Shown: piece by piece, positions 33,950-40,971 of the stretch
Numbering within the stretch: the first letter of the stretch is position 1
Layout of the letters: every line of letters begins with the position of its first letter
Position numbers and translations under genes: made by a program
The notes under the pieces: generated by a model
The model's input: the letters and a program-made list of their open reading frames with translations, nothing else
Told to the model about the DNA's origin: nothing
Databases searched by the model: none
Assembly: GCA_015057005.1 (NCBI GenBank)
Contig: SVFF01000006.1
Span: 62,001-126,000 of the forward strand
DNA length: 64,000 nt
Direction: 5' to 3'
Origin: Lachnospiraceae bacterium
GTDB taxonomy: Bacteria; Bacillota; Clostridia; Lachnospirales; Lachnospiraceae

Positions 33950-35509
33950 TTATGTGCGGTCGTTACTATTAGGAATGGTTGGATTGGCATCAATTAATAC
34001 CTTTTCATCTAGGCCTAAATCCCCCATTATACGCAAGAAAATATCTACATGACCTTCTTGGTCCACCTCGATTCGGTGAATCAGGCGTTTTAATTGTTCA
34101 TTTGTCATGTCGTGTATATCTGTGATATCCTCTATCTCTTTGAATGTGCGATTTAAGATATTTTCAAGTTGTTCACCTTTCGTCAAATTGTAGGATACCA
34201 TTTTGAGCTCGTTTTCAAGCCGCTCAATTTCTTTGCGCATGTCGCCGATTTTCTCATTTAATTCCTCTCGGGAAATTAAATCGTCAGTGTACATATCCAT
34301 GTACTTTTGTCTGGATTTTCGTAACTTGGCAAGCTGGGATGTCAATTCTTTCTCGTATTCCAGATTCTCATCTTTGGCTTTGTATACTCGTTGGAATTCA
34401 CCGGTGACATAACTAATAACTTTTTTCTTCTGTTTCAAAATCATACTGAAATAATCCTGCAATACTTCCAGGAGTTCTTCTTCGTCTACTGAAACGGCAT
34501 TGGGGCAACTGTCAGCGCCTCTACCATTGTGTCCGGAACAAACCCAACGCACATAGGTATTTTTGTAAGTACGAACCATACGACGAAAAGACCAACCACA
34601 ATCCTTACACTTAATTAGTGTAGAGAGGAGATATTTATTGCTCTGACGTTCATGGCTCATGCGGAACGATTGATATCTGGAATGCAGAATAGACTGTGCA
34701 TTTTCAAATATTTCGTCTTCGATAATGCGCAAGTCAGGTCGCTCTACGACCATCCATTCTGTTTCATCTCGTTCAGCTCTTTGGCCTGTCAAGAAATCAG
34801 CTATTTCCTGTTTACCATTAATAACCTTACCTGTATATATCTCATTCGTTAGAATGCGGCATATAGCATTCTGGCTCCATTGGCAATTACGCTTAGTTTT
34901 TATGCCCCGTTCATTCAGCATATTTGAAATTTTTGCAGCGCCATACCCTTCTTCTGTATACCACTTATAAATTTGGCGAATGATATTTGCTTCTTCTTTG
35001 TTGATTTCCAGATTAAAGTAATCACCAATTGTTTTGTTGTAGCCGTATACGATATTGGGAACCCGTCCTTTTTCTGCATTTACTTTTTTGCCGAATTTAA
35101 TACGCTTTGAGGTATTTGCACTTTCTTCTTGGGCCAGTGCAGCGAACATAGTCATAACAAATTCGCTATTTCCCATACTAGTCATATTAGCTGTCAGGAA
35201 TTGTGTTTCAATGCCAAGAGCTTTTAGCTTGCGTACACTTTGCAATAGATCAACAGTGTTTCTGGCAAAACGGGAGAGATCTTTTACTACAATCATGTCA
35301 AACAAACCATGCTCTGCATCTGTTAACATGCGTAAGAATTCTCGTCTATTTTTGATTTTAGTTCCTGAAATTCCTTCATCGGCATATACTTTTACGAGAG
35401 TATCGCCTGTCCTCTTAGCATATTCGATGAAAAACTGTTTTTGAGTCTCTAAGCTGTTGAGCTGGTCTTCTTTATCTGTGGAAACTCTGCAGTATGCTGC
35501 TATATTCAT
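33950..35509 (-). CDS. large serine recombinase (resolvase, recombinase and zinc-ribbon domains)
   Basis: MNIAAYCRVSTDKEDQLNSLETQ; YADEGISGTKIKNRREFLRML; KCKDCGWSFRR zinc ribbon; stop codon at element end. Confidence 0.95.
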   Translation of the reverse strand: MNIAAYCRVSTDKEDQLNSLETQKQFFIEYAKRTGDTLVKVYADEGISGTKIKNRREFLRMLTDAEHGLFDMIVVKDLSRFARNTVDLLQSVRKLKALGIETQFLTANMTSMGNSEFVMTMFAALAQEESANTSKRIKFGKKVNAEKGRVPNIVYGYNKTIGDYFNLEINKEEANIIRQIYKWYTEEGYGAAKISNMLNERGIKTKRNCQWSQNAICRILTNEIYTGKVINGKQEIADFLTGQRAERDETEWMVVERPDLRIIEDEIFENAQSILHSRYQSFRMSHERQSNKYLLSTLIKCKDCGWSFRRMVRTYKNTYVRWVCSGHNGRGADSCPNAVSVDEEELLEVLQDYFSMILKQKKKVISYVTGEFQRVYKAKDENLEYEKELTSQLAKLRKSRQKYMDMYTDDLISREELNEKIGDMRKEIERLENELKMVSYNLTKGEQLENILNRTFKEIEDITDIHDMTNEQLKRLIHRIEVDQEGHVDIFLRIMGDLGLDEKVLIDANPTIPNSNDRT

Positions 35510-35555
35510 ATTCAACAACCTTTCTGTTGTGTTTATAAAGTTCTGTTACAACTTC

Positions 35556-36330: not shown

Positions 36331-37686
36331 CTAAGTTTCAAACGACAGTGCAATCTGTTCGGCTACCTCAGGGGAGAGTGATAAAAAACCATTCTCCGTT
36401 TCGAGTTCTGTTGCAGAGGGAATGTTGTCGCGTTCCCAACCGCGCTGCCGTCCATATCTGCCAAAATGCCTGGGATTGATAAAAGTCTTCCAGCCGGTGA
36501 TCACAGTGTTCATGATGTTGTTGATCTCACGAAGCTCCCAGCTCTTAGGTTCTTCATACGGATGATTTAAGGCCTCGTGGTATAGCTGCTTGGAACAGAC
36601 TTTATCACCTTTATACCCATCCAGATAGGCTTGTATCATTCCAGCCATAGCATCTTCAGGCATGAAATTTTTCTGGAATTCCTTCAGGTACTGTTCATTT
36701 TCCCGTGACAGGATTGGTCTATAGTTGCCCTTACGATAGAGTTCCATAGCTTCGGCCCATACCTGTTCCATATATGCTCTGGAAGCGTCTTCGTCCTCCA
36801 GGATGTGCACTTCAGCGTTGCCGGGATCTACTATGATGGGATGAAATCTTCGATTACCGGTCCGATCCAAAGGCAGGAAATCCATGGTATTGGAGGTACC
36901 GCCAAATACACACTGACGTGGCCTGTCCACCGGATGTACTTCGTAAGGTACCTTATAGGTATCCTTGTGACGGCTTAAGAAAGACTTGATCTCCTCGATG
37001 CTCTTGGCATTTGCAGTAGCGATCATCTCCGACATTTCTATGATCAGATGTCCCTGCATCTTGCGGTAGATATTTTCATCATCCAGCTTCTTTAAATCAT
37101 CGGAGAACCATTCATCCTTCATGGCAAGGAACCGAAAAAAGGTAGATTTTCCTGCGCCTTGACCACCCACCAGGCAGAGCATTGTCTCGAATTTATAACC
37201 GGGCTCAAAGACCCGATTGATGGCTCCTAAGAGGAACACCAGCATGGCATCATGAGTGTAATCATTGACTTCCGCGCCCAGGAAATGGTGCAGGACGTAT
37301 CTGATCCGATGCTGTCCATCCCACTGTAGGAGATTTAAATAATCACGAATGGGATGGTATTGATTTTGATCGGCTATGATATTGAGGGCCCGTTGCACTT
37401 TTTTTTCGTTGGAGAGGTCGTATTGCTGTTCCAGATATAACAACAGGTAATTCAAGTCAGTATCGTTAAGCACAGTGCCTGTTTTATTCCACCAGACTTT
37501 TCCTGTGACGTCAATTCTTCCCGTGAAGCTGTTGTACTGGATCAAGTCTTGGAGTTTTTCATCATTCTCTAATGCCAGCATACAGTTCGGAAGAGTGTTC
37601 TTCACAGTTCCATTTTTGGTATATTCCAGATATTCACGGATTTCTTTCGGGGAAAGTTTTCTTTTGTTCTGTAATCTGTTTGTCAA
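36331..37686 (-). CDS. virulence-associated E (VapE)-like replicative helicase/ATPase
   Basis: Walker A CLVGGQGAGKSTFFRFLA; GNRRFHPI; VapE-type arrangement downstream of a primase. Confidence 0.85.
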   Translation of the reverse strand: MTNRLQNKRKLSPKEIREYLEYTKNGTVKNTLPNCMLALENDEKLQDLIQYNSFTGRIDVTGKVWWNKTGTVLNDTDLNYLLLYLEQQYDLSNEKKVQRALNIIADQNQYHPIRDYLNLLQWDGQHRIRYVLHHFLGAEVNDYTHDAMLVFLLGAINRVFEPGYKFETMLCLVGGQGAGKSTFFRFLAMKDEWFSDDLKKLDDENIYRKMQGHLIIEMSEMIATANAKSIEEIKSFLSRHKDTYKVPYEVHPVDRPRQCVFGGTSNTMDFLPLDRTGNRRFHPIIVDPGNAEVHILEDEDASRAYMEQVWAEAMELYRKGNYRPILSRENEQYLKEFQKNFMPEDAMAGMIQAYLDGYKGDKVCSKQLYHEALNHPYEEPKSWELREINNIMNTVITGWKTFINPRHFGRYGRQRGWERDNIPSATELETENGFLSLSPEVAEQIALSFET

Positions 37687-38266
37687 GTTCAACCACCTCC
37701 TTCCCGTGATCTGATAGAAGTGCTGTTTTATCTTCCGCAGTGCCCCAGAGCAATGTATCCAGAAGATACTCCACATAGCTTTTATTCTGCAAGGCCTCTG
37801 TAAAGCGAGAATCCCATTCGCAGTCATATGTTTTAGGGGCAAAGTGTTCCTGCCAGTACTGCAGCATGTGCAGATATGAGGCCAGCGTATGAAAGCATGG
37901 TATGGTTGCTTTTAGGGCCAATTTATCAAGAGGTAGATTCGTCACTTCAGTTGCAGCTTTTGTATAGCTTTGTGACTGACGCTGTGGTGAGAAGCGCGCT
38001 CTGATGGTCACCGGAATCCCGAAGTCCGCTGCAAGCTTTAAGGCAGCTTCTTTGGGATTTAAGTCATAGAGTCTTGCCACTAGGTCAATCACATCTCCAT
38101 CTGCCTGGCAGGCAAAACAGTGAAATCTGTTATCAAGCTTCATGCTGGGATTCGTATCTTTGTGAAATGGGCAGACCACCATGCCGTAACGATTGATGCG
38201 GATACCATATCGCTCAGCGGCCTGTCTGGCGGTTACTTGTTGTTTTACTGTTTCATATACATTCAT
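37634..38266 (-). CDS. CHC2 zinc-finger DNA primase-like protein
   Basis: CPFHKDTNPSMKLDNRFHCFACQADGDVIDLV. Confidence 0.87.
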   Translation of the reverse strand: MNVYETVKQQVTARQAAERYGIRINRYGMVVCPFHKDTNPSMKLDNRFHCFACQADGDVIDLVARLYDLNPKEAALKLAADFGIPVTIRARFSPQRQSQSYTKAATEVTNLPLDKLALKATIPCFHTLASYLHMLQYWQEHFAPKTYDCEWDSRFTEALQNKSYVEYLLDTLLWGTAEDKTALLSDHGKEVVELDKQITEQKKTFPERNP

Positions 38267-38326
38267 TTGTTTCTCCTTTCCGGGAATAGAAAAAGCACCT
38301 GACATTTTTTAAATGACAAGTGCTTT

Positions 38327-39550
38327 TTAGCGTTCCATATTTTTTTGTTTCGTTTTCTTCTCTGAATCTCCGGCGCGTTTTATGAGCGTTTTGTTTCGCT
38401 GCAGTTTTTCGAGCAGGGATTCTTTTGCTTTTTCTTTGATCAAGGCCTTAGCCTGTTCTTGAAGAGAGGGAGATTTTAGAGCTGACATTACTTTCTGCCG
38501 CAGCTTCTCCGCGGATTTTTTTATTCTGTTCTGAACAGCATCTAGAGATCTTATGATCAGATTCTTTTTGTCTGTAGGGAGATTGCGGTCTTTCGAACTG
38601 ATCCAAGTCTGATAGTTTTCAACTATTGCAAGATCCTGCTTCTGCGTTTCCTCAAAAACCTTTTCAGCCACCGTCTCACAGGCTTTCTCATATGCAGTAT
38701 CAACAATCTCCTCTACAAGGGTTTCTGCGTCTTCCAATTTCATGGTGATCTCATTCAATGCCTGTTCTTTCTCGGCGATTGCACTTTTTTGTTTGGCAAG
38801 GATAAAATCATTTTTCTCCATGTGGCTTCGGCCTCCATATTCCGGTTCACGATCCAGATGAACTCCATGCTGCTCACAGATATCGAAGAGCATGGAGCGA
38901 CAGATTGCGTCAAAGGTCTGTTTACGATTATTGAACTTGCTTCTCGGCTGGGTCGGATCCGGCAGTTCAATTCCCAATGCTTCCAGTGCTTTCTCCTGTT
39001 GCGGACAGATCTCTCCGTATTGGTTTTTACAATCAAACACGTGACGTTCCTGGATGTGTGGGGTTTTCTCATCCAAATGCAGAGCCCAGTTCAGAATATG
39101 GACATGCTCTCCAAACTGGTCACGCATTTTTGTCAAAAACTCCGTTGTGATCTGTAACAGAATCTCCGGCGGAACCGATTCATCCATGTTTCCAATCTGA
39201 TAAATGGTTTCTTCGGGACAGGTCTTTTTGTTTTTCAACAGATCCTCTACAGACCGGTTCCTGTTTGCATGTCTGCTCTTGATGTTTCTCTCATTTTGCG
39301 CATTGATAAACGCAGTATATTGGGAAGTATAAAACAGAAGCTCTACATCTTCAAAAGAGATATCACCGTCTTTGTCCATTTGATGATCCTGCGGTGTGGT
39401 AAATCCGTTGATACAATCCCAATAAATGTTTTGTTTGGTCAGTTCCGGGTTTATATGGTCACTATTATCCACATCAAATCTACGATCGTTATGTTTTGGA
39501 TTATAAGTGCCATGCTTCCCGCAACGACCATTGTGTCGTGTCAGTTTCAT
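38327..39550 (-). CDS. MobV/Pre-type plasmid mobilization relaxase
   Basis: NERNIKSRHANRNRSVEDLL; LHLDEKTPHIQERHVF relaxase motif. Confidence 0.82.
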   Translation of the reverse strand: MKLTRHNGRCGKHGTYNPKHNDRRFDVDNSDHINPELTKQNIYWDCINGFTTPQDHQMDKDGDISFEDVELLFYTSQYTAFINAQNERNIKSRHANRNRSVEDLLKNKKTCPEETIYQIGNMDESVPPEILLQITTEFLTKMRDQFGEHVHILNWALHLDEKTPHIQERHVFDCKNQYGEICPQQEKALEALGIELPDPTQPRSKFNNRKQTFDAICRSMLFDICEQHGVHLDREPEYGGRSHMEKNDFILAKQKSAIAEKEQALNEITMKLEDAETLVEEIVDTAYEKACETVAEKVFEETQKQDLAIVENYQTWISSKDRNLPTDKKNLIIRSLDAVQNRIKKSAEKLRQKVMSALKSPSLQEQAKALIKEKAKESLLEKLQRNKTLIKRAGDSEKKTKQKNMER

Positions 39551-39668: not shown

Positions 39669-40025
39669 CAAGACTGCCGCCCTTGACCCGCACAGGGATA
39701 TTGCATTCCCTGTACCCATGCACAAAGGGCTGCGCCCTCTGTACTCCTGCCGGAGAAACTGTATCAGACCGCTGGCTAGCCAATCCTCACAGTCTCACCG
39801 TTTTTCCAGAACTCTCCACCGGAGACTTCTGAAAAAGAGAGACGATGAACCATCCGCCGTCGCGGAGCTTCACCGTCTTTTCGGGTATGCGCAGCTGCAT
39901 CCCCGAGATTGATAAATCGCCCGGGCAATTTATCCTCTTTCTTTGCAAATGAGCAAAACAAAAGCGACCAACTTTATTGTTGATCGCCTTTGGCTTGGTC
40001 ACTATTTTAAATTTAAATAATAAAA

Positions 40026-40162
40026 CAACCGAGTAAGTTTATACCTGCTCGATTGCTCAATATAACTATACCACACTCAAAGTATAATCACAATAGATGA
40101 AACATAGACGAAACATAGATGAAACATAGATGGAACATAGATGAAATATAGATGAAACATAG
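40026..40162 (-). repeat. iteron/promoter/hairpin module 1
   Basis: Six 11-bp repeats (ATGAAACATAG, 40097-40162); minus promoter TTGTGA-17-TATAGT (40093-40065); hairpin 40055-40026. Confidence 0.75.
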
Positions 40163-40223
40163 ATTTGCATCATTTCTGTGTAGTTCCGACTTTTCAATAT
40201 GTGAGGTTTCGTCAAAAAGAAAA

Positions 40224-40354
40224 CAACCAAGTAGGGATTCCTGCTCGATTGCTTAGTATAATAATAACATAGTTGTTTTACATTTGCAATGGACACCTTA
40301 TAGACACCTTATGGACACTTTATGGACACCTTATGGACAGCGTATGGACACTTG
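40224..40354 (-). repeat. iteron/promoter/hairpin module 2
   Basis: Six 11-bp repeats (ATGGACACCTT, 40289-40354); minus promoter TTGCAA-17-TATTAT; hairpin 40251-40224 followed by TTTTCTTTTT. Confidence 0.78.
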
Positions 40355-40375
40355 TACTTTTTTACATGTTTTGTT

Positions 40376-40403
40376 GTACCAGTGTATGTACCAGTGTACC
40401 AGT
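40376..40403. repeat. GTACCAGTGTA short direct repeats (x3)
   Basis: GTACCAGTGTAT GTACCAGT GTACCAGT. Confidence 0.6.
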
Positions 40404-40410
40404 CAATAAA

Positions 40411-40459
40411 AGTAGACAAATTTTTTTCATCAGTAGACTATTCTTTTTCAAAAGTAGAC
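40411..40459. repeat. AGTAGAC x3 with exact 21-bp period
   Basis: AGTAGAC at 40411, 40432, 40453. Confidence 0.65.
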
Positions 40460-40533
40460 TCTGTATTAGGAGTTGCGCATCAAATGTATGCGCAACCACA
40501 CCTATAGTAAACAGGTTTTGTTGCAAAAGAAAA

Positions 40534-40649
40534 CAATCGGGCAGAAAATTTCCTACTCGATTGCTTATTATAACTATAACACATTCAAAAAAGGAATACA
40601 ATGGGGGTAGTGTAGAGGATTTGTAGAGATTTTGTAGATTTTTTGTAGA
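40534..40649 (-). repeat. iteron/promoter/hairpin module 3
   Basis: TGTAGA at 40611, 40622, 40633, 40644 (11-bp period); minus promoter TTGTAT-17-TATAGT; hairpin 40563-40534. Confidence 0.75.
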
Positions 40650-40971
40650 TGGTTTGCCTAACAGGCCTTAAAGGACATAATCAAGAGGGAGAAATTGCAG
40701 GATTGGTAGTTTCTTTTTTGGTTACAGAATGCTAAAATGAACTTGTGCGATATATCCGAAGTGATTGCACAAGAAGAATGATGCAAAACACGAAGTTGAC
40801 AGAAGATGTGATATATTGGAAAAGCACGAATTTGGCATGATACAGAATGCGGTGTTTTTGGGTATTATCTTAAGTTTTTCTTAGGATTTGGGGACCTGGC
40901 TTTACAGGAGAGTGAAATTAAGGTAAAAAATAGTACAAGAATCAAGAAATAAGATACAGAGGAGAGTTTGC

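Follow-up and report, generated by a model that had tools for sequence, protein, structure and literature searches.

What is the role of three tandem modules in the genome of a gut-type Lachnospiraceae bacterium, each an array of 11-bp repeats that runs into a promoter and an immediate hairpin, upstream of genes that appear to belong to a mobile element? We examined these modules within the window, by which we mean the whole 64-kb stretch of DNA analysed, and in related genomes and phages. Inspection of the sequence, TRF and a module scan all place the modules where the preliminary description had put them, on the minus strand and with a 17-bp promoter spacing (Table 1). Each reads, in minus-strand order, array, -35 element, 17 bp, extended -10 element (TGN-TATWRT), TATANTR, a hairpin from about +1 and a U-rich tail. 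The -35 meets the array directly in Modules 1 and 2 and is separated from it by about 9 bp in Module 3; in Module 2 the last in-phase unit begins 29 bp upstream of the -10. TRF assigns period 11 to positions 40093-40164 (6.5 copies, 90% matches), 40289-40351 (5.7 copies, 86%) and 40611-40655 (4.0 copies, 79%). A lag scan of the whole window found three segments of period 11, one of period 14 and none of any other period from 7 to 20, and 100 composition-preserving block shuffles yielded no period-11 segment. The three modules are the only period-11 arrays in the 64 kb and have a real, well-defined regulatory anatomy.

Table 1. Modules and neighbouring genes in the window (all on the minus strand; folding energies are predictions)
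Feature	Position	Strand	Description
Module 3 array	40606..40657	-	4 units of TCTACANNNNN, period 11; from sequence, TRF and module scan
Module 3 promoter	40573..40601	-	-35 TTGTAT (40596-40601), 17 bp, extended -10 TGT-TATAGT (40573-40578)
Module 3 5'-terminal hairpin	40523..40566	-	AAGCAATCGAG...CCCGATTG, tail UUUUCUUUU; terminator-like, about -15.5 kcal/mol
Probably decayed array(s) between Modules 3 and 2	40375..40460	-	CTGGTACA repeats, 40375-40398; GTCTACT repeats of 21-bp period, 40408-40460; decay presumed
Module 2 array	40289..40354	-	6 units of TGTCCATAAGG, period 11
Module 2 promoter	40261..40289	-	-35 TTGCAA (40284-40289), 17 bp, extended -10 TGT-TATTAT (40261-40266)
Module 2 5'-terminal hairpin	40214..40254	-	tail UUUUCUUUUU; about -14.4 kcal/mol
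Module 1 array	40093..40164	-	about 6.5 units of CATCTATGTTT, period 11
Module 1 promoter	40065..40093	-	-35 TTGTGA (40088-40093), 17 bp, extended -10 TGG-TATAGT (40065-40070)
Module 1 5'-terminal hairpin	40016..40058	-	tail UUUUAUUAUUU; about -15.4 kcal/mol
Relaxase-like gene (plasmid-recombination type)	38327..39550	-	the first gene after the modules; 44% identity to the homologue in L036
CHC2 zinc-finger primase-like gene	37634..38305	-	PF01807
VapE-like helicase gene	36331..37842	-	PF05272, E 6.8e-68
Large serine recombinase (integrase) gene	33950..35518	-	PF00239, PF07508, PF13408; far end of the co-directional gene block

The 11-bp period of the preliminary description stands, but the units within a module are similar and not identical, and the Module 3 array is better read as CTACA-N6 on the coding (minus) strand. 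Its view of the modules as promoters with a short RNA product agrees with the predicted RNAs of ~40 nt, each folding as a 5'-terminal hairpin (-14.4 to -15.5 kcal/mol) followed by a U-rich tail. It did not list the two decayed patches (Table 1). An Rfam search of the modules matched no family. Two inverted repeats lie close by, one near-perfect between Modules 3 and 2 (40468-40500; GGTTGCGCATacatttGATGCGCAAC) and one between Module 1 and the relaxase gene (39960-39990; GCGACCAACTTTATTGTTGATCGC), the latter possibly a terminator or part of a transfer origin.

The modules point into a block of relaxase, primase, VapE and recombinase genes that runs in the same direction. Integrase, primase and VapE are assigned by Pfam; the product of the relaxase-like gene matched no Pfam, NCBIfam or PDB sequence, and its tentative assignment as a relaxase relies on gene context and similarity. 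Besides recombinase, VapE, primase and relaxase-like genes, no recognisable activator gene was found in the element, and near the modules there are no phage late genes for packaging or structure, the relaxase block lying downstream instead. A search for direct repeats marking the ends of the element gave none that was convincing. The carrier of the cassettes looks like an integrated mobilizable element.

Homologues of the relaxase occur in 52 of 397 family genomes. Among about 43 relaxase-family loci examined, period-11 arrays were present only in the window, L036 and L100 (the latter in genome G207). A scanner for the complete module (period-11 array, 17-bp spacer and extended -10), run over the relaxase-family loci (706 kb in all), matched three times in the window, four times in L036 (two being overlapping readings of one promoter), four times in L100 (including one opposite-strand match) and at none of the other loci; at control lags of 8, 9, 10, 12, 13, 14 and 15 it matched 0, 5, 1, 1, 0, 0 and 1 times. 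In all three loci the modules lie upstream of the relaxase gene and are co-directional with it, apart from the opposite-strand match in L100, and in L036 a distance of 4.5 kb, in which an opposite-strand gene lies, separates the cassettes from the relaxase gene. A module also lies upstream of, and co-directional with, a MobQ-type element at L005. We considered a tie between the modules and this relaxase family and rejected it, with modules at 3 of about 43 loci; the cassettes are therefore not needed for mobility.

Elsewhere in the genome of the window, L005:3492-3657 carries a Module 3 copy (95-97%) together with a vestige of the Module 2 array, and L006 has a solitary Module-3-like cassette (75%) where no element genes were seen. 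The truncated start of an IS91-like transposase (L005:3142-3372) immediately precedes the copied Module 3. G031, from a different Lachnospiraceae genus, holds (L029/L036) two hairpins of the window type and three further arrays, of types TGTCTACA, TGTCCCCA and TGACCCCC, each abutting an extended -10 promoter of 17-bp spacing. A covariance model of promoter plus hairpin, applied to about 300 family and 100 genus genomes, matched only the copies in the same genome and those in G031. Two of its candidates (L037 and L038) were rejected as ordinary sequence or terminators; exact-pattern hairpin matches in genome contigs at an unrelated Chloroflexi locus (L035) and at what looks like a group II intron end (L034) were treated as chance.

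The 5' arm of the hairpin, AGCAATCGAG, is invariant in all six modules compared, from two genera, and differences in the conserved part of the 3' arm are confined to wobbles or mismatches, with no compensatory changes among the six. The invariant arm is consistent with common descent and is no proof of a functional RNA. The preliminary description had asked whether related elements combine a conserved hairpin with variable repeats: these six modules do, and outside L005, which copies the window modules, the repeats of related elements differ from those of the window; yet several other cassettes in L036 and L100 are without a window-type hairpin. At L036:9843-9915, in a second hairpin module, the predicted transcript start coincides with an ATG and the hairpin forms the start of a 97-aa ORF with no PHROG match.

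The same architecture is found in phages. Three-unit TGTCC-N6 arrays occur in 19 of 397 family genomes, a reversed control pattern giving far fewer matches, and four-unit arrays in at least 120 viral contigs; since the surveys were built on TGTCC and CTACA cores, these counts understate arrays with other cores. The viral arrays fall into two classes. Those of one class lie inside replication-initiator ORFs and presumably are origins. Those of the other are intergenic, start at most about 40 nt past the stop codon of the preceding gene, a small one (mostly 137-229 aa), and run into an extended -10 promoter, beyond which come HNH/terminase or structural genes. This intergenic class shares the anatomy of the window modules. 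Among 25 of its upstream proteins, 24 match PHROG 36 (transcriptional regulator), 19 PHROG 248 (transcriptional activator), 10 TIGR01637 (ArpU) and 7 TIGR01636 (RinA), and one matches a Q-like antitermination PHROG. At L146, L156, L161, L257 and many other viral loci, 11-bp GGACA-N6 arrays in replication-initiator ORFs (around aa 105-145) are probably linker-encoded origin iterons. Among genus members, near-CTACA-N6 arrays at L373, L376 and L379 may be PhoB-type 11-bp repeats of a conjugative element, and at L374 (genome G501) a CTACA array lies upstream of a CHC2 primase/VapE gene pair on the other strand.

Arrays and promoters in phages are also in helical register. In viral contigs where three TGTCC units precede an extended -10, the distance between them is 27-29 bp in 34 and 22-24 bp, half a turn off, in 4; these are not independent events, because the 34 include a few within ORFs and several that are closely related, and removing those leaves 24 distinct promoters. 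The preliminary description was right to point to the helical phasing of the 11-bp units. The CTACA cassettes, with 27 bp from array to -10, fall within the phage range, and the distance is 29 bp in Module 2, three G031 cassettes, one L100 cassette and one G115 cassette. An intrinsic terminator follows within about 90 nt at 13 of the 24 distinct viral promoters, compared with 46 of 1440 random windows (3%) from the same loci (Fisher P 3e-13). Terminators being enriched after viral late promoters, the immediate hairpin of the window modules also fits the phage architecture.

We then turned the comparison around, locating ArpU genes by protein similarity and the TP901-1 activator by gene name, and inspecting these phages without reference to arrays. 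The best lag at the end of the activator gene is 11 in Harrison (26/33), Pd_22F (29/33), Spoks (24), phiERICV (19) and TP901-1 (21). In SDFMU_Pfc periods 10 and 11 score about equally, and in Lily, whose ArpU gene is followed at once by another gene, period 11 is absent from the gene end. A terminator directly after the promoter is present in phiERICV, SDFMU_Pfc and Spoks as well. The one past the Spoks late promoter (L423; GAATTGATCGAGG...CCTTGGTTGATTC) resembles the window hairpins (ATCGAG / GGTTG), which may reflect a leader motif common to both. The phi13 paper (PMC13123087), the second-hand source of the repeat geometry quoted here, gives four imperfect repeats as the usual target of Ltrs and places the Alt sites of TP901-1 at -76 to -32. 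That span equals four 11-bp steps, the geometry seen in the window modules.

The window modules are probably phage-type late-promoter cassettes responsive in trans to late activators, a link that the preliminary description had missed. The 11-bp array would provide head-to-tail sites for a late activator of the ArpU/RinA (Ltr) superfamily. Because the last site overlaps or adjoins the -35, bound activator would stand on one DNA face beside RNA polymerase at an extended -10 promoter that would be silent without it, and the hairpin would be the promoter-proximal terminator commonly found after such promoters. Since the element has no activator of its own, we infer that an activator supplied in trans would turn the cassettes on: the late activator of a phage, whether resident or newly infecting, or the similar regulator of a conjugative helper; the three unlike arrays may then read three different activators.

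Three candidate purposes remain: timing of the gene block of the element itself, which position and direction favour, titration of activators, and production of a hairpin RNA. The simplest use would be to time the relaxase-primase-helicase-recombinase block, with the terminators read through when an activator is present, and induction of the element as the purpose is plausible, if somewhat short of probable. Its main difficulty is the promoter-proximal terminators, which argue against simple expression of the relaxase block. This difficulty would be solved if the activators also antiterminate, as hinted by the Q-like PHROG match and the parallel with lambda pR'-tR'. More speculatively, and we regard this version as doubtful, the cassettes could form a multi-input sensor, in which each array answers the late activator of one phage and all have a common output; ArpU/RinA proteins would both activate and allow read-through of the terminator, and entry into late phase by any one of several phages would make the element replicate and leave.

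Other readings were weighed against phage-type promoters. The cassettes might be decoys that titrate phage late activators and blunt late-gene expression, their terminators only insulating neighbours and their variable arrays covering several phages. Several unlike arrays (4-7 sites) in one place with promoter and hairpin alike, a terminator immediately past each predicted start, and the L006 cassette without an obvious gene to drive would all suit a decoy; a promoter in exact register is unnecessary for one, yet register and promoter are kept in every module, and titrating a late activator may take more than three or four chromosomal arrays. We think this unlikely. We likewise give little weight to the idea that the protein bound by the arrays is not a phage one but an OmpR/PhoB-type winged-helix or sigma-like regulator encoded by a conjugative helper, the mobilizable element being timed by its ICE as SGI1 is by AcaCD, a precedent described in PMC4605294 and PMC5058578. 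OmpR/PhoB-type regulators can use 11-bp repeats too, the near-CTACA arrays of L373, L376 and L379 have an OmpR-type winged-helix gene on their upstream side and a sigma-like gene downstream, and the G115 module adjoins a replication-initiator-like gene. However, those near-CTACA arrays are without an in-register extended -10, whereas the window modules agree with phage late promoters in array register, extended -10 and terminator.

The preliminary description had itself offered small regulatory RNAs, and the conserved hairpin could be the functional output with the variable arrays as inputs. The invariant 5' arm speaks for this, although common descent of the cassettes can explain the identity; the want of compensatory changes and of an Rfam match, the L036 and L100 cassettes without this hairpin, and the unrelated terminators at the same place in phages make it quite improbable. 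Its suggestion of iteron-like origin or copy control, which we considered as one or more replication origins of the excised element bound by a Rep or VapE protein, was at first attractive to us, given the viral TGTCC arrays inside initiator genes and the primase and VapE genes of the element. We set it aside on register and context, and consider it very unlikely: viral origin arrays lie within the initiator ORF, while the window arrays are unlike one another, where an iteron origin usually has a single array type, and each is tied in fixed register to a sigma-A-type promoter, matching phage late promoters. In about 40 of the 43 related elements whose relaxase belongs to this family, no such array lies close to the relaxase gene. 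Single-strand promoters used in transfer, also proposed there, do not agree with what are ordinary duplex promoters whose module recurs in phages. Finally, decayed arrays between Modules 3 and 2 and the truncated L005 copy might indicate that the modules are late promoters left over from prophages and now without function. This we find very unlikely against three intact tandem in-register cassettes with no phage gene nearby and their recurrence upstream of other mobilizable elements.

Known systems resemble the window in different respects. Late promoters of the Ltr/ArpU/RinA type (TP901-1 Alt, S. aureus phi13 Ltr, phi11 RinA) likewise have a direct-repeat array that lies upstream of the -35 and reaches it, and the activators act through these repeats (PMC13123087). 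TP901-1 shares period 11 with the window in our lag scan; the phi13 repeats are 18 bp. Unlike these phage promoters, the window modules adjoin neither an activator gene nor phage late genes, and several unlike arrays stand in tandem in a mobilizable-type element. The Q-dependent lambda pR'-tR' region also combines a late promoter with a promoter-proximal terminator. Lambda Q binds within the promoter and antiterminates, whereas for ArpU/RinA antitermination is a suggestion made here. Phage satellites (PICI/SaPI) have integrase, primase and replication helicase genes in common with the window element, and a response to a helper phage would be common to both; they differ in that the window element has a relaxase-like gene and no capsid or packaging genes were seen in it. 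Classic PICIs are induced by derepression and not through tandem late-promoter copies. SGI1/MGI islands, with their AcaCD-responsive promoters, are mobilizable elements timed by the activator of a helper element (PMC4605294, PMC5058578), as the window element would be by its putative helper; activator family and DNA motif are different, and the window element has several array specificities.

Partners for the window arrays were sought directly. No activator or phage matching them was found among the sequences searched: the viral contigs had neither the Module 1 nor the Module 2 array, the phages and genus genomes lacked that of Module 1, and neither array turned up in a prophage. Matches to PHROG 36/248 in the host assembly, which is about 86% complete, look like ordinary sigma factors, and a plasmid search gave one weak match. 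Enrichment of period 11 beside every PHROG 36/248 match was tried and was uninformative because those families also match host sigma factors; the clear late regulators among the matches had 10-bp arrays.

Such cassettes are ordinary in phages; here they stand in tandem, with different specificities, in mobilizable-type elements. Mobile elements that eavesdrop on or trap phage late regulators were not found in the literature searched. The signature of 11-bp array, 17-bp spacer, extended -10 and immediate terminator offers a simple means of finding late promoters and activator specificities in phages of Gram-positive bacteria, and the enrichment of terminators after late promoters makes antitermination by ArpU/RinA a testable question. 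The different recognition arrays suggest that the element listens to, or traps, control proteins from more than one phage or related helper.
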